Of a stretch of DNA of 36,378 bases, positions 2,235 to 21,131 are shown piece after piece. Below the pieces are notes generated by a model. The model saw only the letters and a program-made list of their open reading frames with translations, did not search any database and had not been told where the DNA came from. Source of the DNA: a virus; IMG/VR virus record IMGVR_UViG_3300045107_000306, positions 1 through 36,378 of that record. One strand, 5' to 3'. Position 1 is the first letter of the stretch. The number at the start of each line of letters is the position of its first letter. Position numbers and translations under genes: made by a program.

Positions 2235-3158
2235 ATGGCCGCCGGGGGTATTCCGCAGACGGCTATGTGGGGCGGCCGCGCGGCTCAGGTCGAGCAGGAC
2301 GTGCGCGTTGCCGAGATCGAGGTGGGCGAACGCCTGCGCGAGCTCGGCGAAGGCGCAGTCGCCGACCTGATGGTTTCGATCCAGGAGACAGGGCTCATCC
2401 AGCCGATCGTGCTGCGCCCGCTCGAGCGCGAGGACGGCGAGATTGGGCTGCAGCTCGTCGCGGGCGCCCACCGGCTGGAGGCGCACCGACGCCTCGGCCG
2501 AGAGACAATCCGGGCTCGCGTGATCGACCTCAGCGATCTCGACGCCCAGCAGGCCGAGATCGACGAGAACCTGGTCCGCCAGGAAGTGGTCGGCTGGCCC
2601 CGCTGCCGGTTCGTCGCGGCCCGGGCCGGCATCTACGCCGAACGCCATCCAGAGGCCGTGCGGAACATCGGCGACGAAGGCCCTCGAGGGCGTGGCCGGC
2701 CGCGGAAGGATCAATTTCCGCTCCGGGGCGGAAAATACATCCCGTCGCTCATGGGGTTCGTCGCTGAGGTCGCGGACCAGACCGGCCTGGACCGCAGCAC
2801 AATCGAGCGAGACGCCCAAATCTGGGCCGCACTCCATCCATTCGACGCCCAAATCCGAGCCCTGCCGCTCGCGCACGACACCCGCGCCCTAAAGCGCCTC
2901 GCGGCGGCGCCGCCGGAGCTGCGCGCTCCTGCGATCGAGCTGCTCGCTAGCGGGAAGACCGGCGACGTCTCGGACGCCCTGGTGGTCGCGGACGGGGGCA
3001 AGCCGGCTTCGAAGCCCGCGCAAACACCCGTCGATCAGGCGGTGAAGGCCTTCCGGAAGCTGTGGGGCGACGCCTCGCCCAGCGCTCGGGCGGCGATCCT
3101 GAACGACCTGGCCGGCCGCTCCCTGCCGAAAGGCTGGATCGTGCGGGAGGACCGCTGA
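2235..3158 (+). CDS. ParB/RepB/Spo0J-family protein
   Basis: A 307-residue protein. The N-terminal ParB nuclease-like fold covers about residues 22-115: EIEVGERLRELGE, MVSIQETGLIQPIVLRP, then LVAGAHRLEAHRRLG (the GxHR-type box) and IDENLVRQE. The middle contains an HTH-like stretch (DQTGLDRSTIERDAQIW). The C-terminus is alanine-rich. ParB-like proteins directly ahead of MuA occur in several Mu-like phages of alphaproteobacteria, where the role is not settled; DNA binding, and possibly CTP binding, can be proposed from the fold. It begins 3 bases after ner and ends one base before the next start. Confidence 0.82.
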   Translation: MAAGGIPQTAMWGGRAAQVEQDVRVAEIEVGERLRELGEGAVADLMVSIQETGLIQPIVLRPLEREDGEIGLQLVAGAHRLEAHRRLGRETIRARVIDLSDLDAQQAEIDENLVRQEVVGWPRCRFVAARAGIYAERHPEAVRNIGDEGPRGRGRPRKDQFPLRGGKYIPSLMGFVAEVADQTGLDRSTIERDAQIWAALHPFDAQIRALPLAHDTRALKRLAAAPPELRAPAIELLASGKTGDVSDALVVADGGKPASKPAQTPVDQAVKAFRKLWGDASPSARAAILNDLAGRSLPKGWIVREDR

Positions 3159-11583: not shown

Positions 11584-11792
11584 GCCGGTTCGACCTCTTC
11601 ACCTGGAGCGACGAGGCCGAGGCGGCCGCCGAGCTGGCCAAGGCGGAAGAGGCGCGGGCGCTCGCCGCCCGGAAGGCCAAGGTCGCCCCGCATGGCGAGG
11701 TGCAGGCGCGCCGCGCCAAGCTTCAGGCGGCGACGCACCAGCAGCTCGCCGCCGAGCTGGAGCTGGCGCGAATCCAGCGGGGGCTGCGTTGA
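11580..11792 (+). CDS. Small helical hypothetical protein
   Basis: 70 residues from a GTG in a GTGA overlap. Almost wholly charged helix (EAEAAAELAKAEEARALAAR and onward), likely coiled coil. Its stop overlaps the TTG of the Mor-like gene. Function unknown. Confidence 0.6.
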   Translation: MSRFDLFTWSDEAEAAAELAKAEEARALAARKAKVAPHGEVQARRAKLQAATHQQLAAELELARIQRGLR

Positions 11793-12166
11793 CGGGCCTG
11801 ACCGGGTTCCTGGCGGCTGTGGCCGAGGTGGCCGGCGAGAGCGCCGCGACGCGCCTGGCGCTGGCGGCCGGCGGCACGCGCCTCACCTTCTCCGCCGCCA
11901 AGAACTCGACCCTGGTGCGGATCGTCGGCCTGGACGCTGCGCAGAAGATCGTTGGCCAATTCGGGCGGGAGACCTACACCATCCCCATGGCCCACCTGCG
12001 CGGCCAGAAGGGTCGACAGGCCGCCGCGGCCAAGATGCTGGCCAGCGGCGCCAACGCGAGCGAGGTGGCCCGGGCCTGCGACGTCCACGAACGGACGGCG
12101 CGACGGGTGCGGAAGCGCATGGCGCAGGCCAAGCAGGCGGGCTTGCCGCTCTTCCCCGAGAGCTGA
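11789..12166 (+). CDS. mor: Mor-like transcription activator of late genes
   Basis: 125 residues (Mu Mor has 129). The dimerisation part includes VGLDAAQKIVGQFGRETYTI, with the family's strand-forming (Y)xIP motif, followed by LRGQKGRQAAAAKM. The C-terminal helix-turn-helix is at about 87-110 (NASEVARACDVHERTARRVR). Mor and C of Mu bind dyad sites upstream of middle and late promoters and recruit RNA polymerase. The gene ends 3 bases before the first of two identical dyad sites (12170 and 19998). No second Mor/C-type gene is seen. The start is TTG in a TTGA overlap. Confidence 0.85.
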   Translation: MTGLTGFLAAVAEVAGESAATRLALAAGGTRLTFSAAKNSTLVRIVGLDAAQKIVGQFGRETYTIPMAHLRGQKGRQAAAAKMLASGANASEVARACDVHERTARRVRKRMAQAKQAGLPLFPES

Positions 12167-12168
12167 CG

Positions 12169-12214
12169 GGCGGACAACTGTCCGCGGAGATCGCAGCGCG
12201 GACTTCCCACACTC
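12169..12214 (+). promoter_or_regulatory. Late promoter 1: Mor-type dyad and -10 element
   Basis: The dyad GCGGACA-AC-TGTCCGC (12170-12185) is inside a 23-bp block (12169-12191) repeated exactly at 19997-20019. A weak -10 (CACACT, 12209-12214) places the start near 12220 and the dyad centre near -42. No -35 box is present, as expected for activator-dependent Mor/C promoters. It would drive lysis, terminase, portal and MuF genes. Confidence 0.7.
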
Positions 12215-12230
12215 TGAGCGTGAGACATCG

Positions 12231-12252
12231 CCCGGCGCAAGCCGGGTTTCTT
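12231..12252 (+). terminator. GNRA-capped hairpin in the late operon 1 leader
   Basis: CCCGGC-GCAA-GCCGGG followed by TTTCTT. It looks like an intrinsic terminator with a very stable GCAA tetraloop. It lies downstream of late promoter 1 and 12 bases before the endolysin start, so it may end read-through from the early operon, or act as a 5' stabilising hairpin on the late mRNA. Confidence 0.55.
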
Positions 12253-12263
12253 GCAGGCGCAGA

Positions 12264-12896
12264 GTGAACACCCAAACCCCTCAGATTGTTTCCAGACCTC
12301 AGGGCTGGACCGCGGCGCACGAGAGCCGATGGCAGGCGCTGCAGCGCCGCATCCTCGTGGTGGAGGGCGGGTTCGTGGACGATCCCGTCGACCGCGGCGG
12401 CACGACCAAGTACGGGGTGTCCCTGCGCTTCCTGCAGGCGGTGGGCAAGATCGACGCGAACCGGGACGGGTTCGCGGACCTCGACCTCAACTTCGACCGG
12501 GTGCTGGACGGCCACGATATCCGGGCACTTACGCCGAGGATCGCCGGCGACCTGTTCCTGAAGCACTTCTACCTGCAGCCGGGCTTCTGGGTGCTGCCGC
12601 GGCCCTTCGACGCCGCGCTGTTCGACCAGGCCGTGAACGGCGGCACCACGGCGGCGATCAAGATCCTGCAGCGGGCGCTGAACCGGTTCGGGCCGCCGCG
12701 CCTGAGTGTCGACGGCGCCCTCGGCAACATCACTCAGGCCAAGCTCCTCGAGCAGATGCGCGCCGGAGCGCCCGTGATCCAGGCGATCCGCGAGGAGGCC
12801 GCGGCCCGGTATCGCGCGATCGTCGCCGCGGACCCTGACCAGCGGAAGTACCTGAAGGGCTGGCTGCGGCGCGCCGAGGAGCTGGGACGTGAGTAG
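12264..12896 (+). CDS. Endolysin, glycoside hydrolase family 108 (N-acetylmuramidase)
   Basis: 210 residues from a GTG. The GH108 catalytic motif is clear: Glu34 in VVEGGFVDDPVDRGGTTKYG. The second half carries the peptidoglycan-binding type 3 region (FDAALFDQAVNGGTTAAIKI and GPPRLSVDGALGNITQAKLL). It cuts the glycan strand of peptidoglycan at lysis. There is no signal peptide or signal-anchor, so export needs a holin. It is the first gene after late promoter 1, matching the Mu lys position. Frame-compatible starts further upstream would read through the promoter and are rejected. Confidence 0.92.
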   Translation: MNTQTPQIVSRPQGWTAAHESRWQALQRRILVVEGGFVDDPVDRGGTTKYGVSLRFLQAVGKIDANRDGFADLDLNFDRVLDGHDIRALTPRIAGDLFLKHFYLQPGFWVLPRPFDAALFDQAVNGGTTAAIKILQRALNRFGPPRLSVDGALGNITQAKLLEQMRAGAPVIQAIREEAAARYRAIVAADPDQRKYLKGWLRRAEELGRE

Positions 12897-13302
12897 CGCA
12901 CCGCTCCGCATCTACCGCGGCGACCGGACCGCCGCCCTGGGCGTGCTGGCCCTCCTGGGTCTGCTGGCCAGCCTCACCTTCCTTGACGTCTACGGACCCC
13001 CGATCATGAAGCGTATCGCCCGGCTCGCCGCGCTCGCCCTGCTCGCCGTGCCCCTGACGGGCTGCCTTGGGCTTACCCCGGTGGGGCGCACCATCGTGGG
13101 CAAGCTGCCCAACTACGAGATCCGCCAGGCGCCGGCGATTCCGTGCTCCGAGATGCTGGTGCGCGTCGATCCGGAGGCCCGGCTGACCAACGCGCAGCAG
13201 CGCGCGGTCGTGAAGGTCTGTGAGGACATGACCCGCGGGGTGATCGTGGATCCTGGCGAGCTGCAGGACGCCATGCGGCAGACCGTGCCCGGGCCCTTCT
13301 GA
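12889..13302 (+). CDS. Lysis-region membrane protein with internal lipoprotein start
   Basis: 137 residues from a GTG that overlaps the endolysin stop by 8 bases and has GAGGAG 8 bases upstream. Residues 15-35 form one hydrophobic segment and 43-58 a second. Met40 begins a perfect lipoprotein signal of its own (MKRIARLAALALLAVPLTGC, Cys59). Initiation at 13006 would give a 98-residue lipoprotein; initiation at 12889 would add a transmembrane segment ahead of it. The rest is soluble with two more cysteines. The position suggests a holin or spanin role, but neither family is recognised. I am sure of the frame and unsure which start dominates. Confidence 0.7.
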   Translation: MSSAPLRIYRGDRTAALGVLALLGLLASLTFLDVYGPPIMKRIARLAALALLAVPLTGCLGLTPVGRTIVGKLPNYEIRQAPAIPCSEMLVRVDPEARLTNAQQRAVVKVCEDMTRGVIVDPGELQDAMRQTVPGPF

Positions 13303-13304
13303 CC

Positions 13305-13775
13305 ATGGTCGCGAGGATCACGGGCAGGTTTCGCGTCGAGGAGGTTCCCGGGCTGTCGCGTGGGGGCCGAACCTGCGTCGCGCTCCTGGAGCCGCTGGAG
13401 TACCACGTCGGCCACGCCGAGAGCCCCGAGGTGATCACGGTGCCGACGGGGTTCCAGACGGACTTCGCCTCCATCCCGTGGGGCCTCTGGAACCTGTTCC
13501 CGCCGCTGGGTCCGTGGGCTCGGCCCGCCATCATCCACGACTTCCTCTACGCCACGCGCGGCGACGGCTGGTGGGGACCGGAAGGCGGGAACCGCCGCAA
13601 GTGGATCACGGGGCCGATCCGCGCCGACTTCACCGCCGGCGTCTACGTCCGTGAGGAGGCCGACAAGATCTTCCGCGAGGCGATGGGCGCCGTGGAGCCG
13701 CCCGTCCCCGCCTGGCGGCGTGAGGTCATGTACCGCGCCGTTCGCCTGGGCGGCGCCGAGGGATGGGGCCGATGA
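13305..13775 (+). CDS. DUF1353 family phage protein
   Basis: 156 residues with the DUF1353 pattern: VPTGFQTDFASIPWGLWNLF and RPAIIHDFLYATR, then a helix with EEADKIFREAM. The family is common in the lysis and late regions of phages and prophages; its function is not established, and the conserved His-Asp pair (HDFLY) has prompted suggestions of an enzyme. It starts two bases after the previous stop and overlaps the zinc-finger gene by 4 bases. Confidence 0.85.
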   Translation: MVARITGRFRVEEVPGLSRGGRTCVALLEPLEYHVGHAESPEVITVPTGFQTDFASIPWGLWNLFPPLGPWARPAIIHDFLYATRGDGWWGPEGGNRRKWITGPIRADFTAGVYVREEADKIFREAMGAVEPPVPAWRREVMYRAVRLGGAEGWGR

Positions 13776-13999
13776 CCGACGTCTTCGATCGCGCCCAGGA
13801 GGCCGATCAGTTCCGGCGCGAGCTGGCGATCCGCGCCTTCCGCGCCGGCGCGGCCGAGCTGGCCAAGCCCAGCGCCTTCCTGCTTTGCGACGACTGCGAC
13901 GACCCGTTGGACGCCGAGCGCCGGCGCCTCGTGCCCGCGGCCACGCGTTGCGTGCTTTGCCAGGAGGCCGCCGAGGCGCGCCTCCGAACCGTCAGGTGA
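13772..13999 (+). CDS. TraR/DksA-family zinc finger protein
   Basis: 75 residues. A helical N-terminus (DRAQEADQFRRELAIRAFRA) precedes a C4 zinc finger with two CxxC pairs: CDDC, with the DPLDAERRR signature right after it, and CVLC. Short TraR-type proteins bind the secondary channel of RNA polymerase and mimic DksA plus ppGpp; phages often carry one in the late region. The start at 13772 (ATGA overlap) is preferred over one three codons earlier. Confidence 0.85.
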   Translation: MTDVFDRAQEADQFRRELAIRAFRAGAAELAKPSAFLLCDDCDDPLDAERRRLVPAATRCVLCQEAAEARLRTVR

Positions 14000-14343
14000 C
14001 CCCGTTGCTTAAAACCCTCGTCGAGTACTCGCCCCTCCTGAGCCTCGCCGGCACCATGCTGCTGGCGGTTCTGGCGCTATGGGTCGACGCCCGCACCGAT
14101 CGGAAGATCTCGGCCGCCGTCGATCCTCTGAAGGATGACCTGGAGGATCTGCAGCGGCGGACCGACGCCAACGAGGCCAGCATCGCCGAGGCCCGGTCCG
14201 ACATCGAGAAGATGCCCACCAAGGCTGACCTGGCCCGCGTCGAGGGGGAGGTGAAGGCGACGCTGGGCGAGGCCACGGCCGCCGCCGCCGGCGTGAAGCG
14301 CCTCGAGACGATCTTCATCCAGCGGGGCGTGGAGAACGTTTGA
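13996..14343 (+). CDS. DUF2730 family protein (Mu gp25-like)
   Basis: 115 residues from a GTG in a GTGA overlap. One N-terminal transmembrane helix (about residues 12-30, LLSLAGTMLLAVLALWV) is followed by a long coiled coil (DDLEDLQRRTDANEASIAEA and onward). The same architecture and place are found in Mu gp25 between lysis and terminase genes. A membrane-anchored coiled coil would fit a spanin-like or other envelope role, but this is inference. Confidence 0.8.
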   Translation: MTPLLKTLVEYSPLLSLAGTMLLAVLALWVDARTDRKISAAVDPLKDDLEDLQRRTDANEASIAEARSDIEKMPTKADLARVEGEVKATLGEATAAAAGVKRLETIFIQRGVENV

Positions 14344-14645
14344 TGGACTACGCAGCGATCCTGGCCGCCGACCGTCGCCTGGCCATCCTCCGTCTCCTGA
14401 AGGAGGGCGGCGGCGAGGCCGGCGAAAGCGTGCTCGAGAAGGGCCTGCACATGCTGGGCCACCGAGCCGGTTGCGACCGCGACCAGGTCCGCGCCGACCT
14501 GCGCGCGCTCGAGGACCGCGCGTGCCTGGTGATCTCGCTCTTCCAGGACAAGTACATGGTCGCGAAGATCACGCGCCGCGGCGTCTCCGTCGCCGAGGGC
14601 ATCGTGCACGTCGAGGGCGTCGCCCGGCCGGCGATGGGGCTCTAG
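14343..14645 (+). CDS. Mu gp26-like winged-helix protein
   Basis: 100 residues. The pattern DRRLAILRLLKE, GLHMLGHRAGCDRDQVRADL and KITRRGVSVAEG is that of the gp26/ArsR-like winged-helix proteins placed just before the small terminase in Mu-like phages. DNA binding is likely; the role in packaging or regulation is not known. The ATG is in a TGATG overlap; a TTG one codon earlier is possible. Confidence 0.8.
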   Translation: MDYAAILAADRRLAILRLLKEGGGEAGESVLEKGLHMLGHRAGCDRDQVRADLRALEDRACLVISLFQDKYMVAKITRRGVSVAEGIVHVEGVARPAMGL

Positions 14646-15184
14646 TGCCCAAGCCCTCCTCCATCGACCGCCTCCCGGAAGAGGTGCGCAGCAAGATCGC
14701 CGAGCTGCGCCGCAACGGCCGCACCCTCGACGAGATCCTGGACCACCTGCAGCAGCTGGACGTCGAGGTCAGCCGCTCGGCGCTGGGCCGCCACGTGAAA
14801 AGCCTGGCGCAGATCGGCGAGCAGATGCGTCGCGCCGAGACCATGGCGAAGTTCGTGGTCGAGCGGTTCGGCGAGGACAGCGACGACCGGCTGGGCCGGG
14901 CGAACATGCGCATCCTGCAGGGCGCCCTGCTGGAGATGCTGGCCGAGGATCGGATCGACGAGGAGACCGGCGCCCCGATCACCCTATCGGCCAAGGAGGC
15001 GAAGGAGCTGTCGCTCGCCGTGCAGCGCCTTGTGAGCGCGCAGCGGATGGATGCCGAGCGGGAGCTGCGCCTGCGCGCCGCCTTCAAGCGCGAGGCGACC
15101 GAGAAGCTGGACGCCGCCGGCCGCACCGGAGAGATCGACCCGGACGCCGTGGAGCGCGCCAAGCGAATCCTTGGCTTTGCCTGA
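14645..15184 (+). CDS. Small terminase subunit (DUF3486, Mu gp27-like)
   Basis: 179 residues from a GTG that overlaps the previous TAG by one base. The N-terminus carries an HTH (SIDRLPEEVRSKIAELRRNG, then EILDHLQQLDVEVSRSALGR). The rest is a long helical oligomerisation region. DUF3486 proteins recognise the packaging site and hand DNA to the large subunit; Mu-type packaging starts near the left end. TGATG overlap with the large terminase supports co-expression. Confidence 0.9.
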   Translation: MPKPSSIDRLPEEVRSKIAELRRNGRTLDEILDHLQQLDVEVSRSALGRHVKSLAQIGEQMRRAETMAKFVVERFGEDSDDRLGRANMRILQGALLEMLAEDRIDEETGAPITLSAKEAKELSLAVQRLVSAQRMDAERELRLRAAFKREATEKLDAAGRTGEIDPDAVERAKRILGFA

Positions 15185-16695
15185 TGGCGGCGGAACCGTC
15201 CCTTGCCGGCCTCTCGCCGCTGATCAACTTCCTGCCGTACCAGCGGAAGTGGCTGGCGGATAAGTCGCGCTTCAAGATCGGGATGTTCTCCCGCCAGACC
15301 GGCAAGACCTTCACGAACTGCGCCGAGCTGGTCGACGACTGCATCGACGCCGAGGTCACCGGCCGACGTACCCGCTGGTTGATCCTATCCCGCGGCGAGC
15401 GCCAGGCGAAGGAGGCGATGGAGTCGGCGGTCAAGCCGTTCACCCGAGCCTTCTGGGAGCTGTATCGCGGCGTGCTGAAGGGCAAGGCGCCCGAGATCCG
15501 CGAGGATGAGTTCCGGGTCGAGCGCCAGGGCCAGAAGGATGCGGCCTATCGCATGTTCGAGGTGGAGTTCCCCGGCGGCTCCCGGATCACGGCCCTGCCG
15601 GCCAACCCGGACACTGCCCGCGGTTTCTCCTCGAACGTACTCCTGGACGAGTTCGCGTTCCACGCGGACTCCAAGGCGATATGGGGCGCGCTCTTTCCGG
15701 TGATCTCGAAATCCGGCCTGGTCCTGCGCGTCGTCTCCACCCCCAACGGCAAGTCCAACAAGTTCTACGACCTGATGACCCAGGAGCCGACGGTTTGGTC
15801 GCGGCACGTCGTGGACATCTACGACGCCGTCGCGCAGGGCCTGGACCGCGACATCGACATGCTGCGCGCCGGGATCGGCGACGCCGACCTCTGGGCCCAG
15901 GAGTACGAGCTGAAGTGGCTGGACGAAGCGACGGCCTGGCTCGACTACGAGCTGATCCACGCCTGTGAGCAGCCGGTGGGCTACACGGCCCGGGTGAACT
16001 ACACCGGCACGCCCCAGCGGCCGGTGCGAACGGTCGAGCGTGAGAACGGACGTCGGTCCTTCGCAACCCGCGACGGCAAGTTCTACGTCGGGATGGATAT
16101 CGCCCGGAAGAAGGACCTGACCTGCATCTGGGTGGCTGAGCTGGTCGACGGGGTGCTCGTCGTCCGCGAGATCATCACGATGCACCGGGCCGCCTTCTGG
16201 GCGCAGCACGCGGAGCTCGACCGGATCTTCGCCGAGTACAACCCGGTGCGGACGTGCATCGACGAGACCGGGATGGGCGCGCCGTTCGTCGAGGCGGCGC
16301 AGCTGCGGCTCGGCCAGCTTCGCGTTGAGGGCGTGGTCTTCACCCCGGCCAACCGCCTGTCCATGGCCGGACAGCTGAAGGAGAGGATGGAGGACCGCCG
16401 GTTTGTCCTGCCTGCGGGTGACCGCGACCTTCGGGACGATCTCCATTCGATCACCAAGGCGGTCTCGCTGACCGGCGCCGTGCGGCTGGTCCACGACGGT
16501 GAGAGCGACGGCCACGGGGACCGCTTCTGGGCGGCCGGCCTTTGCTGCGCGGCGGCGAGCGAGCCCATTCAACCTTACGCCTACCACCCCGTCCTCGCCC
16601 GCGAGCACCACGACATGAGCCCGCTGGCCCGGCGGCGCCAGGAGATCGAGCACGGCTCGGGCATGGGCGGCTTCCGCGGCCGCAGGAGCTTCTAG
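15184..16695 (+). CDS. Large terminase subunit (Mu gp28-like)
   Basis: 503 residues. The ATPase half has an atypical Walker A at 36-42 (SRQTGKT) and Walker B with Asp155-Glu156 (NVLLDEFAF). The RNase H-like nuclease half has acidic residues in the expected places: Asp305 (VGMDIARKKDLT), Asp360-Glu361 (CIDETGMGAPF) and Asp446 (GHGDRFWAAGL). It pumps DNA into proheads and cuts it by the headful. The protein appears complete. The N-terminal stretch PLINFLPYQRKWLADKSRFK is typical of the gp28 family. Confidence 0.95.
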   Translation: MAAEPSLAGLSPLINFLPYQRKWLADKSRFKIGMFSRQTGKTFTNCAELVDDCIDAEVTGRRTRWLILSRGERQAKEAMESAVKPFTRAFWELYRGVLKGKAPEIREDEFRVERQGQKDAAYRMFEVEFPGGSRITALPANPDTARGFSSNVLLDEFAFHADSKAIWGALFPVISKSGLVLRVVSTPNGKSNKFYDLMTQEPTVWSRHVVDIYDAVAQGLDRDIDMLRAGIGDADLWAQEYELKWLDEATAWLDYELIHACEQPVGYTARVNYTGTPQRPVRTVERENGRRSFATRDGKFYVGMDIARKKDLTCIWVAELVDGVLVVREIITMHRAAFWAQHAELDRIFAEYNPVRTCIDETGMGAPFVEAAQLRLGQLRVEGVVFTPANRLSMAGQLKERMEDRRFVLPAGDRDLRDDLHSITKAVSLTGAVRLVHDGESDGHGDRFWAAGLCCAAASEPIQPYAYHPVLAREHHDMSPLARRRQEIEHGSGMGGFRGRRSF

Positions 16696-16697
16696 TC

Positions 16698-18350
16698 ATG
16701 GTTCAGCTTGTCGATCGTTTCGGGCGCCCGTTGACGGCGAAGAAGGGCGACCTGACCCGCGAGGTGGCCGCGCCCGGGCTCACCGGCGTGCGCCAGGCGT
16801 GGGACGCGCGCACCGCTGTCGTCGGCCTTACGCCCGACCGCCTCGAGGCGATCCTGCGGCAGGCCGACCAGGGCGACCTGGATGCGCTGTTCACGCTCGC
16901 CCAGGAGATGGAGGAGCGGGACCCGCACTATGCCTCGGTCCTGCAGACCCGGAAGCTTTCGGTCGTGGCGCTCGAGCGCAAGGTGACCTGGACGAAGAAG
17001 CAGGCCGACGATCCGCGGGCCGAAGAGATCCAGGAGGCGTGCGAGGAGCTGCTCGAGGCCGACGAGATGGACCTCCTGATCCCGCACCTGATGGACAGCG
17101 TCGCGAAGCCCTACGCCGTGGCCGAGACCATCTGGCACAAGGGGCCGGATCGATGGACGCCGGAGCGCTACGAGGACCGAGATCCGCGCTGGTTCCAGCT
17201 GGATCGGCTTACGGGCAAGGAGCTGCGCCTGCGGGAGGTCGGCGCGCCGGACGGCGTGCCGCTGCCGCCGTTCACCTTCGTCTCGCAGTTCGCGGCCAAC
17301 AAGTCGGGCCTGATCGCGAGGCGGGGCCTGGCCCGCGTCGTCGCCTTCAGCTTCGTCTGCAAGCTCTACGGCCTGAAGGACTGGATGGCCTACGCGGAGA
17401 TCTTCGGCATCCCGCTCCGCCTGGGCAAGTACGGCGCGGGGGCGACCCCGGCCGACGTCGACGTCCTCAAGAGGGCCGTGTTCGGCCTCGGCTCCGACGC
17501 GGCCGCCGTGATCCCCGAGGGGATGACGATCGAGTTCCCGGCGCCGGCGAGCGGCACGGGCAACGCCGAGCTGTTCCACGCGCTGGTGGTGTTCATCGAC
17601 AACCAGGTGAGCAAGGCGGTCCTGGGCCAGACGGGTACGACCGACATGCAGAAGGGCGGCGGCTTCGCCCAGGCCAAGGTGCTCGACGGCGTCCGCACCG
17701 ACCTGAAGCAGGCGGACGCGAAGGCGGTGGGCGCCGCGATCCGCCGCGACATTCTCACCCCCTTCGTGCAGCTCAACTGGGGCCAGGACGCCCCGGTGCC
17801 GCGGGCCGAGCTGGTGGTCGAGGAGCCCGAGGACATGGAAGCCCTGGCGGGCTTCCTGGAACGGATGGTGCCGCTGGGCCTGCGGGTGGGCCAGTCCGAG
17901 ATCCGAAAGAAGGCGCGCCTCTCCGAACCGGCCGACGACGAGGAGGTGCTGTCGCCGCCGGCGAAGGCGGCCGCGATCGACCCCACCGATCCCAACGCGA
18001 AGCCAAAACCGACCCCGGGTGCCCCACCGAGCGCTGCGAACGACCCGGCAGCGCCGGCTCGCGACCCTGCGCTCGCCCGCACCGAACTCAGCGCCGAGGT
18101 GGCGGCGCGGGAGGCCGCCGATCGGCAGCTCGAGGAGGCCCAACTGGCCGGCCTCGAGGAGTGGCAGCAGACGTTCGCGCCGGAAGCCGCGGCGGTCATG
18201 GACCTGGTGAAGGGGGCCGGCAGCTTCGAGGAGATCTCGCGCGGGCTGGAGCGCATGGCTGCGGACCTGGCCGCGCCGCCCGCGGCGCGCGCCCTGGCCC
18301 GGGCGATGTTCGAGGCCGCGGTGATCGGCGAAGGCGGGCGGGAGGCCTAG
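16698..18350 (+). CDS. Portal protein (DUF935, Mu gp29-like)
   Basis: 550 residues (Mu gp29 is 512). It shows the DUF935 hallmarks: EMEERDPHYASVLQTRKLSV near residue 75-95, the central EIFGIPLRLGKYG, and FIDNQVSKAVLGQTGTTDM about residue 300. A proline/alanine-rich insert (about 430-465, KPKPTPGAPPSAANDPAAP) accounts for the extra length. It forms the dodecameric DNA gate at the capsid vertex. It starts two bases after the terminase stop and abuts the MuF gene. Confidence 0.94.
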   Translation: MVQLVDRFGRPLTAKKGDLTREVAAPGLTGVRQAWDARTAVVGLTPDRLEAILRQADQGDLDALFTLAQEMEERDPHYASVLQTRKLSVVALERKVTWTKKQADDPRAEEIQEACEELLEADEMDLLIPHLMDSVAKPYAVAETIWHKGPDRWTPERYEDRDPRWFQLDRLTGKELRLREVGAPDGVPLPPFTFVSQFAANKSGLIARRGLARVVAFSFVCKLYGLKDWMAYAEIFGIPLRLGKYGAGATPADVDVLKRAVFGLGSDAAAVIPEGMTIEFPAPASGTGNAELFHALVVFIDNQVSKAVLGQTGTTDMQKGGGFAQAKVLDGVRTDLKQADAKAVGAAIRRDILTPFVQLNWGQDAPVPRAELVVEEPEDMEALAGFLERMVPLGLRVGQSEIRKKARLSEPADDEEVLSPPAKAAAIDPTDPNAKPKPTPGAPPSAANDPAAPARDPALARTELSAEVAAREAADRQLEEAQLAGLEEWQQTFAPEAAAVMDLVKGAGSFEEISRGLERMAADLAAPPAARALARAMFEAAVIGEGGREA

Positions 18351-19709
18351 TTGGCCGACGAGCGCTTCATCTTCGATGCCGCCCCGGATCCGCGCGCCGT
18401 GGCGTTCCTGGAGGCGAAGGGCCTGAAGCGCTCCTGGCGCTGGCCATCGATGTGGCAGACCGAGCACGCCTACGCCTTCACCCTGGCCGGCGTGTATCGC
18501 CTCGACGTCCTGGCGGAGACCAAGCGCCTGGTGACGGCGGCGATCGCCGAGGGCCAGACGCTGGACGGGTTCAAGGCCGCGTTCGAGGCCAAGCTGCAGG
18601 GCCTGGGCTTCGCCGGCCCGCAGGTGGTCAACGACTTTGCGGAAGGTCCGCGCAAGGTGGAACTCACCGCGCCCTGGCGGGTGAAGGTGATCTACGACAC
18701 CAACGTGCGCCAGGCCTACGCGGCGTCCGCCTGGCAGGCGATCGAGGACACGGCGGCCGACTTCCCGGCGCTGCAGTACCACCACACCCCGCAGCAGCAT
18801 CCTCGGCTCAACCACCTGGCCTGGGACAAGATGGTGCTGCCGGTCACGCACCCCTTCTGGAAGACGAACTTCCCGCCCAACGGCTGGTACTGCAAATGCT
18901 TCACCATCCAAGTCAGCGTCGACGAGCTGGCCAGCGGCGCGGTGAAGCTCACGCCCGACGACGCCCTGCACGCCACCGGCTACGACGAGCGCCCGTCGCG
19001 CTGGCGGGAGTGGCGCCATGGGCCCACCGGCCGGGTGGACCGCGCGCCGGAAGGGGTGACGCCGGCGTTTGCCTACAACCCGGGCATGGAGCGCCGGCGG
19101 AACCTCGGCGAGCTGCTGGAGCGGCGCGTCGAGGCGCTGGACGCCGACATGGCGCGGGCGGCCGCCGCCGACCTGGTGAACCTGCCGCTGTTCCACGACC
19201 TGGTCAGCGACGCGATCCGGATCGGACAGGCGCAGGCGGCCGCGCGCAGTGCGACGGCCGCGCGCCTGGTCGGCGGATCCGCCCGAAAGGCCGAGATCGA
19301 CCAGGCGGCCCAGGACGCCGCAGCCGCCGCCGCCGAGTTCCCGAAGGACAGCTGGCCGGTGGGCGTGGCGCCGGCCGAGATCCAGGCCCTGGCGCCCGGC
19401 GCGGGCCGGCTGGTGGTGGCGAACGCCTCGACGATAGGCCACAGCGCCCACATCCACCCGACGACGCCGGCGGACTGGCGGCGCGTGCAGCAGCTGCTGG
19501 AAGGCGGCGAGGCCTGGCAGGGCGAGGGCGGCGAGCTGGTGTTCTTCGGCCGGTTCGACGACGCCCGCGGCGAGCGGACCTGGACGATGGCGCTGAAGGC
19601 CGTGGCTGGGGCCTGGCGGGTCCGGACGCTGTTCGAGAGTTCGCCGCGACGCCGGGCGCGGATGATCCGCCGGTTGCGTCAGGTGCGAGGCGAGAAGAGC
19701 GGCGGCTAG
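18351..19709 (+). CDS. F: MuF minor head protein with C-terminal nuclease-like (PBECR-type) domain
   Basis: 452 residues from a TTG (GGGAGG six bases upstream). Residues about 25-220 are the Phage_Mu_F/SPP1 gp7 domain, with VKVIYDTNVRQAYAASAWQA, HPFWKTNFPPNGWYCKCFTI and surrounding segments. It is an internal head-maturation protein. Residues about 334-443 form a second unit: HSAHIHP (364-370), a central helix (WRRVQQLLEGGEAW), and strands with Lys416 (MALKAVAGAW) and RTLFESSPRR. This layout resembles the phage Barnase-EndoU-ColicinE5/D-RelE-like domains often fused to MuF proteins. Nuclease activity is inference; a purely structural tail is possible. It is the last gene of late operon 1. Confidence 0.88.
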   Translation: MADERFIFDAAPDPRAVAFLEAKGLKRSWRWPSMWQTEHAYAFTLAGVYRLDVLAETKRLVTAAIAEGQTLDGFKAAFEAKLQGLGFAGPQVVNDFAEGPRKVELTAPWRVKVIYDTNVRQAYAASAWQAIEDTAADFPALQYHHTPQQHPRLNHLAWDKMVLPVTHPFWKTNFPPNGWYCKCFTIQVSVDELASGAVKLTPDDALHATGYDERPSRWREWRHGPTGRVDRAPEGVTPAFAYNPGMERRRNLGELLERRVEALDADMARAAAADLVNLPLFHDLVSDAIRIGQAQAAARSATAARLVGGSARKAEIDQAAQDAAAAAAEFPKDSWPVGVAPAEIQALAPGAGRLVVANASTIGHSAHIHPTTPADWRRVQQLLEGGEAWQGEGGELVFFGRFDDARGERTWTMALKAVAGAWRVRTLFESSPRRRARMIRRLRQVRGEKSGG

Positions 19710-19996
19710 GGGTACGCTACCTTCCCCATCGGTCCCGCGGGTCGCCCCGCCGGCCGGCTTCGCGAATTGACTTAGCCGCCGCGGCCAATATGCGCCGCCG
19801 AGCCCCGGATTTCAAATGGCCGTGGAAGCCCCGTAGAAGCCCGCTGACAGGCCTTGACGTCCGGCGCGCCGCGGCAGGGCTAGCGGAAAACCCCCAGCGG
19901 GCCTGTAGACCCGTTTGAAGGCGTTCGAAGGGCCATCCTGGCGCCCGGGTGCGGGGCGGGTCGGCCGCCTTCGGCCGTGTTCCTGGCGGCGGGTGA
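19710..19996. other. Intergenic segment between late operons
   Basis: This holds no confident gene. A 42-codon frame (19791-19919, starting MRRRAPDF, very basic) is open but lacks a ribosome site. Visible elements are a CGGCCG-CCTT-CGGCCG hairpin at 19962-19977, which may end late operon 1 despite having no T-tract, and a degenerate relative of the late promoter core at 19779-19810. Late promoter 2 follows directly. Confidence 0.55.
19779..19810 (+). repeat. Degenerate copy of the late promoter 2 core
   Basis: CCGCGG, three bases, then ATATGCGCCGCCGA (19788-19801) and CCCGGAT. The same order occurs in late promoter 2: CCGCGG, two bases, ATATGCGCCGCCGA (20018-20031) and CCCGAT. The dyad's left arm is missing here, so it is probably not active. 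It looks like the remnant of a duplication. Confidence 0.5.
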
Positions 19997-20043
19997 GGCG
20001 GACAACTGTCCGCGGAGATATGCGCCGCCGACATCCCGATACT
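19997..20043 (+). promoter_or_regulatory. Late promoter 2: Mor-type dyad and -10 element
   Basis: An exact second copy of the 23-bp block (19997-20019) with dyad GCGGACA-AC-TGTCCGC at 19998-20013. The -10 is GATACT (20038-20043), better than at promoter 1. The expected transcription start is at about 20050, so the dyad centre is near -44. It has no -35 box. It drives the protease/scaffold, capsid and tail genes. The first codon of the protease gene is at 20052. Confidence 0.75.
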
Positions 20044-20051
20044 CACCCGGC

Positions 20052-21131
20052 ATGTCGAAGCCCGCAACGCAAATCCCGGCTCACCTGGTTCTCGCCCTCG
20101 CCAACTCAGCGAGGGCCGAAGAGGTTGCATTCGGCCTGGCGCTGGACCTGTCGCTGGCGTTCGCCGGCGCCGAGGACCGCAAGGCTGCGCCGAAGTGGGT
20201 GCCGCTGCTGCCCGCTCCCGACGCCAAGGGTGAGATCGTCGCCCGCGACGGCCGGAAATGGACGCTGAAGGATCCGGCCGTGGTGGTCGCCCACTTCCAG
20301 CAGTACGGCGCCGACATCCCGCTGGACCTGGAGCACGCCACCCACCTGCTGGCGCCGGAAGGAAAGCCGGCCCCCGCGCAGGCCTGGATCCAGGAGATGC
20401 AGGTCCGCGAAGACCGCTCCACCTGGGGCCGCGTCGAGTGGACGCCGGCGGGCCTGGCGTCGTGGCAGTCGGGCGGCTGGAAGTACGTCTCCCCCGGCAT
20501 CCTCCACGACGACGCCCGCGAGATCTTCGGCCTGGCCTCCGCAGGCCTGGTCACCCGTCCCGCGCTCCATCTGCCGGCGCTCGCCCGCAGTGGAAGCAGG
20601 AACCCCACCCAGAAGGACGAAACCTCCATGACGACTGTCGCTCTCGCGACGCTCGCCGCCGCCGCAGGCCTTGCCGCCTCGGCGACGGAAGCGGACGTGA
20701 TCGCCGCGCTCTCCGCCGGCCGCCAGGCCCAGGCGGACCTGAAAGACCCCACCAAGTTCGTGCCGGCGGCCGACCTGGCCGCGGCGCAGACGCGCGCCTC
20801 CAACGCCGAAACCGCGCTCGCGGCCATCCAGAAGGACGGCGCGGAGAAGGCGGCCGTGGCGCTGGTCGACGAGGCGATCGCCGCGGGCAAGCTCGCGCCG
20901 GCCGCCAAGGCCCACTGGCTCGACATCGCCCGTGAGGCCCCGGAGAAGTTCAAGGCGGCGGTCGCCGCGATGCCCGTGACGCTCGAGGTCAGCAAGACCC
21001 GCGAGAAGCCGGATGGCCAGGACGGGGCAAAGGACGAGAACGGCCTCACCGCCGACCAGCTCGCCCTCTGCTCGCAGCTCAGCCTCGACCCGAAAGCCTT
21101 CGCCGCGAACCTCCCGAAGGAGACGAAGTAG
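20052..21131 (+). CDS. I: Prohead protease (Mu gpI-like) with nested scaffold
   Basis: 359 residues. The N-terminal protease part has the Mu gpI core: KWVPLLPAP, RDGRKWTLKDP, IPLDLEHATHL (with a conserved Asp-x-Glu-His), WGRVEWTPAG and KYVSPGILHDD, ending near FGLASAGLVTRPAL. The C-terminal part from residue 193 is an alanine-rich helical scaffold. It matures the capsid and degrades the scaffold. No ribosome site precedes the ATG, which sits at the predicted transcription start, so the mRNA may be leaderless. Confidence 0.92.
   Translation: MSKPATQIPAHLVLALANSARAEEVAFGLALDLSLAFAGAEDRKAAPKWVPLLPAPDAKGEIVARDGRKWTLKDPAVVVAHFQQYGADIPLDLEHATHLLAPEGKPAPAQAWIQEMQVREDRSTWGRVEWTPAGLASWQSGGWKYVSPGILHDDAREIFGLASAGLVTRPALHLPALARSGSRNPTQKDETSMTTVALATLAAAAGLAASATEADVIAALSAGRQAQADLKDPTKFVPAADLAAAQTRASNAETALAAIQKDGAEKAAVALVDEAIAAGKLAPAAKAHWLDIAREAPEKFKAAVAAMPVTLEVSKTREKPDGQDGAKDENGLTADQLALCSQLSLDPKAFAANLPKETK
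20628..21131 (+). CDS. Z: Capsid scaffold protein from an internal start (Mu gpZ-like)
   Basis: In-frame ATG at codon 193 of the protease gene, with AAGGA at 20613-20617, ten bases upstream. The 167-residue product (MTTVALATLAAAAGLAASAT onward) is the scaffold part alone: long alanine/lysine/glutamate helices that would fill and shape the prohead. Mu uses the same nested I/Z arrangement. The ribosome site is much better than that of the full-length start, so the short form should be more abundant, as a scaffold needs. Confidence 0.7.
   Translation: MTTVALATLAAAAGLAASATEADVIAALSAGRQAQADLKDPTKFVPAADLAAAQTRASNAETALAAIQKDGAEKAAVALVDEAIAAGKLAPAAKAHWLDIAREAPEKFKAAVAAMPVTLEVSKTREKPDGQDGAKDENGLTADQLALCSQLSLDPKAFAANLPKETK

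Follow-up and report, generated by a model that had tools for sequence, protein, structure and literature searches.

One Mor/C-like activator and two identical operators predicted at the late promoters of a Mu-like phage

Lytic development of phage Mu follows a three-stage cascade with two paralogous activators, Mor and C. Mor binds a 16-bp element centred at -43.5, replacing the -35 box (PMC4390567), and the lys and I promoters of Mu have 10 bp in common, TCCCGCACCT (PMC4461284). Among other Mu-like phages, RNA-seq of Fc02, which has a single mor gene, placed the lysis/packaging and virion clusters in separate late units (PMC9936078), and Thiobacimonas phage vB_ThpS-P1 and Pelagibaca phage vB_PeaS-P1 were reported to be without Mor (PMC5488378). 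Here we analyze the complete IMG/VR record IMGVR_UViG_3300045107_000306 (the window), a viral contig of 36,378 bp from whose right end sequence may be missing. It is a Mu-like phage encoding MuA, MuB, GemA, a Mor/C-like activator, an endolysin, a terminase, a Mu-type portal, gpF, gpI, and a tape measure protein. A first-pass annotation had proposed a shortened lytic cascade for this phage, in which a single activator directly switches on the lysis/packaging and capsid/tail operons from two copies of a 23-bp block. Our sequence analysis supports this proposal: one Mor/C activator very probably acts at two identical dyads and thereby switches on both late promoters. Both dyads can be tied to the single Mor/C-like protein because a relative carries the same dyad arms together with an identical recognition helix, because other phages have matched operator pairs of their own, and because operator bases covary with activator residues.

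The repeated dyad and the single activator gene

The block GGCGGACAACTGTCCGCGGAGAT lies at 12169-12191 and recurs exactly at 19997-20019. As described previously, it holds the dyad GCGGACA-AC-TGTCCGC (7+2+7), and at both sites it stands before a late operon. The elements concerned are the following:

11789..12166, + strand: sole Mor/C-family activator gene, 125 aa, TTG start, stop codon at 12164-12166 (PHROG 836 late transcriptional activator, 2.6e-20)
12169..12191, + strand: copy 1 of the 23-bp block, dyad 12170-12185 centred at 12177.5, predicted lysis/packaging operator (exact repeat; dyad arms also in the relative L007)
12210..12215, + strand: -10 hexamer CACTCT (alternative CACACT, 12208-12213), predicted +1 at about 12222 (sequence, and the geometry common to 30 phages)
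19997..20019, + strand: copy 2 of the 23-bp block, dyad 19998-20013 centred at 20005.5, predicted head/tail operator (dyad arms also before gene I in the relative L003/L105)
20038..20043, + strand: -10 hexamer GATACT, with transcription predicted to start near 20050 (+1), 0-2 nt ahead of the start codon of I (geometry, and the survey of relatives)
20052..21131, + strand: gene I (protease), opening late operon 2, without a Shine-Dalgarno (SD) sequence (Pfam PF10123, 1.3e-45)

Among the exact direct repeats of the record this block is the longest, above the maximum of 20 bp reached in 30 third-order Markov simulations, and a search of the window for a third dyad site, allowing up to three mismatches, found none; the exact recurrence in two copies was thus confirmed. 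Two bases separate the stop codon of the mor-like gene from copy 1, which starts three positions past it as had been observed. At both copies, 32.5 bp lie between the dyad centre and the first base of the -10 hexamer, which puts the centre at -44.5 by the predicted +1, close to the -42 to -44 given by the first-pass annotation in analogy to the Mu Mor promoter. Its -10 candidate at copy 1, CACACT, is an alternative two bases upstream of CACTCT. The dyad centre of copy 2 is 46.5 bp upstream of the ATG of gene I. A promoter scan of the + strand found no sigma70-type -35/-10 pair at either site, in agreement with the claimed lack of a -35 box. The placement of the dyad near -44, the lack of a -35 box, and the presence of a -10 hexamer match the geometry of the Mu Mor promoter.

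The activator gene is the one match to the Mor/C family (PHROG 836) in the record. The family profile matches Mu Mor (1RR7) at 1.9e-5 and Mu C (9L0X) at 0.004, and 24 of 41 relatives match Pfam Mor; judged by its similarity to the family profile, the window protein belongs to the C/Mor transcription activators. A PDB search with the single activator sequence returned nothing. The AF2 model of the protein is confident (pLDDT 90.8) and has a helix-turn-helix (HTH) at 73-117, of which the recognition helix, 101-117, contains R105 and R106; VIA-align with this model listed generic HTH proteins and no significant specific fold match. In the N-terminal half of the activator, a helix-helix-strand unit is duplicated in tandem (residues 9-36 and 40-67; hhalign probability 96.9, E 1.3e-10); Mu Mor and C appear to carry a single GGxxxIP unit.

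We then searched 131 loci with a profile built from the window protein, using Mu as a positive control. Each of the 131 loci gave one match, and the same profile recovered both Mor and C in Mu, so that a C-like paralogue would normally have been detected. Mu C is located between mor and lys, an interval whose equivalent lies inside the window. A C-like paralogue therefore appears to be absent where Mu has one, with the reservation that the right end of the contig may be incomplete; the earlier statement that no C-type second activator is present up to 36378 holds. The window thus has one family member where the Mu cascade has two paralogous activators. Sites before lys and I, as in the Mu C regulon, are present, and the dyad search detected none corresponding to the further sites before P and mom. 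In vB_ThpS-P1 and vB_PeaS-P1 the profile identified one Mor/C-like gene each.

The locus shares with the Mu Mor/Pm system the position of the activator gene directly after gemA, a promoter directly after the gene, an inverted repeat near -43.5, and the lack of a -35 box. It differs in that Mu Mor activates one promoter, which makes C, whereas for the window protein there are two sites of identical sequence, one at the position of lys and one at that of I. The dyads differ as well, with arms of 7 bp and a spacer of 2 bp in the window and arms of 5 bp and a spacer of 6 bp in Mu Pm. With Mu C (Plys, PI, PP, and Pmom) the window protein has in common the targets before lys and I and a gene directly before lys; unlike it, Mu C comes from a middle operon under Mor control and acts at four targets, compared with two sites in the window. 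From its sequence context, the window protein therefore resembles Mor in gene position and promoter geometry and C in its predicted targets. By analogy, the best reading is that the first promoter of the window is the counterpart of Mu Pm, and that in Mu the middle operon and C are inserted before lys.

Paired operators and recognition helices in related phages

The first-pass annotation had suggested scanning relatives for the block. When 2.9 million viral contigs were scanned for exact copies of the 16-bp dyad, nine matches came up, of which only two, L003 and L007, came from a relative; the others mostly look like chance. L007 and L003 are pieces of one phage, with an exact end overlap of 22 nt and adjoining terminase parts encoded on either side. 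In this phage GCGGACA-GT-TGTCCGC is found directly after mor and directly before I, that is, the dyad arms occupy both positions. Its activator is 44-46% identical to that of the window, yet the recognition helix, HERTARRVR, is identical. A search of the viral contigs with the Mor protein found no relative, and when repeated with the L007 protein it found that protein itself only.

Further relatives were gathered by portal-based searches, which yielded 97 non-identical Mu-like loci with both mor and I. In 39 of the 97 (about 14 of them related Bartonella prophages), the two gaps, one behind mor and one in front of I, agree at 18-20 of 20 bases, as compared with 3.1% of gap pairs taken from different loci. 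The operators differ among phages and match within each, examples being CCGACA..TGTCGG, CTGACA..TGTCAG, TGGAA..TTCCA, CTGAA..TTCAG, and GTAGC..GCTAC. In 28 of 30 distinct loci of about 20 kb each, the operator occurs exactly twice, and the other two loci have one extra weak match. The spacing is also constant: across 27 non-Bartonella loci with unrelated operators, the dyad centre lies 43-47.5 bp from the I start codon, mostly 44.5 bp, and the geometry common to 30 phages includes an A at -11 (73%) and a T at -7 (63%).

The same gap pairing was found in Rhodovulum P1, Pelagibaca P1, Thiobacimonas P1, B23, D3112, B3, and Fc02. vB_ThpS-P1 and vB_PeaS-P1 have the layout of the window, with their own element in both gaps. 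B3, Fc02, and D3112 likewise have one detectable Mor/C gene and carry a common element in front of both the lysis operon and I, but their operators are different (TTTTCG..CGAAAA; GAACCCCTTC) and the early region of B3 and Fc02 is rearranged. These comparisons amend the original proposal, in that the arrangement of one activator with paired operators would characterize a large group of Mu-like phages and not the window phage alone. They also bear on the idea that the repeat arose by chance or is kept for recombination or transposition, for example as a transposase site. A GC-rich genome does give chance repeats of 16-20 bp, and Mu-like phages do have transposase sites; such an origin would leave unexplained why the same dyad arms occur at both positions in the relative, and why every phage carries a pair of its own, located in the same gaps and at a constant promoter spacing, and we regard it as extremely improbable.

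To relate the operators to the protein, we compared nine positions of the recognition helix with the operator bases across 38 distinct helices. Helix position 6 (R105 in the window) covaries with half-site base 5 (z = 5.0) and position 7 (R106) with half-site base 2 (z = 8.0); the helices were treated as independent, so both z-scores are upper estimates. A glutamate at position 6 goes with C at base 5 in 7 of 7 cases, an arginine with G in 4 of 6, and an aromatic residue with T in 12 of 14. When position 7 is arginine, the half-site contains GAC in 18 of 20 cases, as opposed to 1 of 18 with other residues (Fisher 2e-7). The remaining helix positions were near null or much weaker. Overall protein identity correlates with operator similarity as well (Mantel r 0.33, 0 of 5000 permutations). 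We infer that operator specificity is set largely by two neighbouring residues of the recognition helix, in the window R105 and R106 reading a GGAC half-site.

This covariation also speaks to whether another phage protein, a lysogeny repressor or a ParB-like protein, might use the dyads as operators to silence or mark the late region. A palindromic 16-mer would suit either, and the window encodes both a ParB-like protein (ParB-N, 2235-3158) and a repressor-type HTH protein (1918-2232). Such a role is nevertheless very unlikely, since two neighbouring residues of the Mor-like recognition helix vary together with the operator bases, the dyads keep a fixed distance to the -10 hexamer and the start codon, where a Mor activator would sit, and there are two copies only, both at late promoters.

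The start of gene I

We surveyed 91 phages with an unambiguous I start, taking the next gene as a comparison. SD-like 4-mers precede I in 6.6% of these phages, against 13% of shuffled sequences and 97% for the next gene. The sequence upstream of I is in register with the ATG: 85% of the phages carry an A at -11, 65% a T at -7, and 93% a C at -1. This register corresponds to a sigma70 -10 element that would place the +1 at the A of the AUG; in the window, where gene I has no SD, the predicted +1 is at 20050 and the leader would be 2 nt long. Because an SD is lacking before I and the -10 element is registered on the ATG, the head/tail (gene I) mRNA is probably leaderless or nearly leaderless. 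In Mu, in contrast, AGGA precedes the ATG of I, and the way the oligonucleotides in PMC4461284 were designed points to a start some 24 nt upstream and a leader of about this length. In most relatives the lysis operon is transcribed with a short leader that contains an SD.

In many relatives (such as L064, L138, L146, L158, and L013) the arms of an inverted repeat lie on either side of the -10 element of the I promoter, with the 3' arm running up to the ATG. With a stem of at least 5, this repeat is present in 48% of relatives, 7% of shuffles, and 0% of next genes, and it is absent in the window. Its arms vary between phages but remain complementary; the column-wise pairing is significant mainly for -16/-3 and does not distinguish RNA from DNA structure. 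In Bartonella loci (L039, L042, and L043, for example) a 6-codon open reading frame (ORF; ATGACAATTGTAAAGCAATAG) sits at the usual I start, just before I, and is possibly a leaderless mini-cistron. In D3112 (L185) an unannotated ORF from 10750 directly follows the first late promoter and has a GGCGGC-ATG start like gene I.

Model for late gene control and its implications

We propose that the activator, the sole Mor/C family member of the phage, is produced from the end of the early operon, and that an activator dimer would bind both dyads about 44 bp upstream of each start. Bound there, it would stand in for the missing -35 box and allow the host RNA polymerase, presumably with a sigma70-type factor, to start at the weak -10 hexamer. 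Promoter 1 would serve lysis, packaging, portal, and gpF, and promoter 2 would serve gene I, capsid, and tail, with the I transcript predicted to begin at the AUG or about 2 nt before it. The middle stage of Mu, in which Mor leads to C and C to lys and I, would thus be collapsed to one step from an early activator to two late promoters. As specificity is largely set by two helix residues, each phage would have its own matched operator pair. The components of this scheme are already known; the variant lies in one regulatory stage fewer and in the matched operators.

Several points weigh against this model. While the repeats, their geometry, conservation, and copy number, the covariation, and the lack of an SD are properties of the sequences themselves, operator binding, activation, dimerisation, the exact transcription starts, and the sigma factor are predictions made from them. 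The window protein scores 19.3 bits against Pfam PF08765, where the gathering score is 24.9, so that its C/Mor membership depends on PHROG 836 and on the relatives; Foldseek with the activator model gave no significant match, with 1RR7 third at E 0.76. An obvious gap-to-gap element is not found in all Mu-like loci, and most Pseudomonas loci are without one. The covariation test assumes independence and has exceptions (L070, L081, L097, and L123), and the right end of the contig may be missing. Finally, the late clusters of Fc02 are not perfectly synchronous (PMC9936078), and extra control is therefore possible.

This difference in timing would also fit an arrangement in which the Mor-like protein drives the adjoining promoter only and a second, unrelated phage or host factor is needed at the I promoter. 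A candidate would be the DksA-like zinc-finger protein encoded in late operon 1 (13763-13999; PHROG 54, 7.3e-17), which could modulate late transcription. We consider a second factor of this kind unlikely, as the two promoters have the same operator and the same spacing and, in any one phage, both operators follow a single helix.

Late operon 1 and its leader contain, in addition to the elements listed above:

12231..12246, + strand: lysis-operon leader hairpin CCCGGC-GCAA-GCCGGG with TTTC after it, which may terminate early transcripts (same hairpin in L013 and L106)
12264..12896, + strand: endolysin of the glycosyl hydrolase 108 type, the first large gene in late operon 1 (Pfam PF05838, 5.7e-17)
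14471..15184, + strand: small terminase ORF (PHROG 426, 3.2e-35)
15184..16695, + strand: large terminase (Pfam Terminase_6N, 1.3e-24)
16692..18350, + strand: Mu-type portal protein (Pfam PF06074, 2.9e-87)
18351..19709, + strand: Mu F-like head morphogenesis protein, encoded last in late operon 1 (Pfam PF04233, 8.2e-11)

A 15-codon ORF with a GTG start (12220-12267) begins at the predicted late start, and its stop codon overlaps the GTG start of the endolysin gene (GTGA), as if the two were translationally coupled. The GCAA-loop hairpin with its T-rich tract (12231-12250) begins about 9 nt past the predicted start of the lysis transcript and is kept in the four nearest phages, identical in L013 and L106 and similar in L007. 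It is perhaps an early-operon terminator that late transcripts must pass, but a terminator scan of the window did not flag the hairpin at 12231-12246. Relatives do not generally have a hairpin in the lys leader, the longest stem averaging 4.0 compared with 4.1 in shuffles.

In the open-access literature that we searched, which leaves out most subscription papers, we came across no earlier description, for Mu-like phages, of operators that form phage-specific pairs and follow a recognition code, and none of leaderless late mRNA in these phages; nor did we find the paired sites of B3, Fc02, and D3112 mentioned in the papers searched. The published statement that vB_ThpS-P1 and vB_PeaS-P1 lack Mor would need correction, each having a divergent Mor/C-like gene.

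Taken more broadly, it seems likely that a large Mu-like group depends for all late transcription on one C/Mor activator with two operators that co-evolve with a pair of its recognition-helix residues, and makes a leaderless or near-leaderless head/tail mRNA from a promoter joined directly to the gene I start codon; the Mor-to-C relay of Mu would then be a later elaboration. This would give a simple picture of late control in many Mu-like phages with a single Mor/C gene, with predicted bases for each activator, and would provide dozens of naturally varied activator-operator pairs from which to work out how C/Mor proteins recognize DNA. If head mRNA does lack a leader across this phage group, leaderless translation would have a specific role late in infection.

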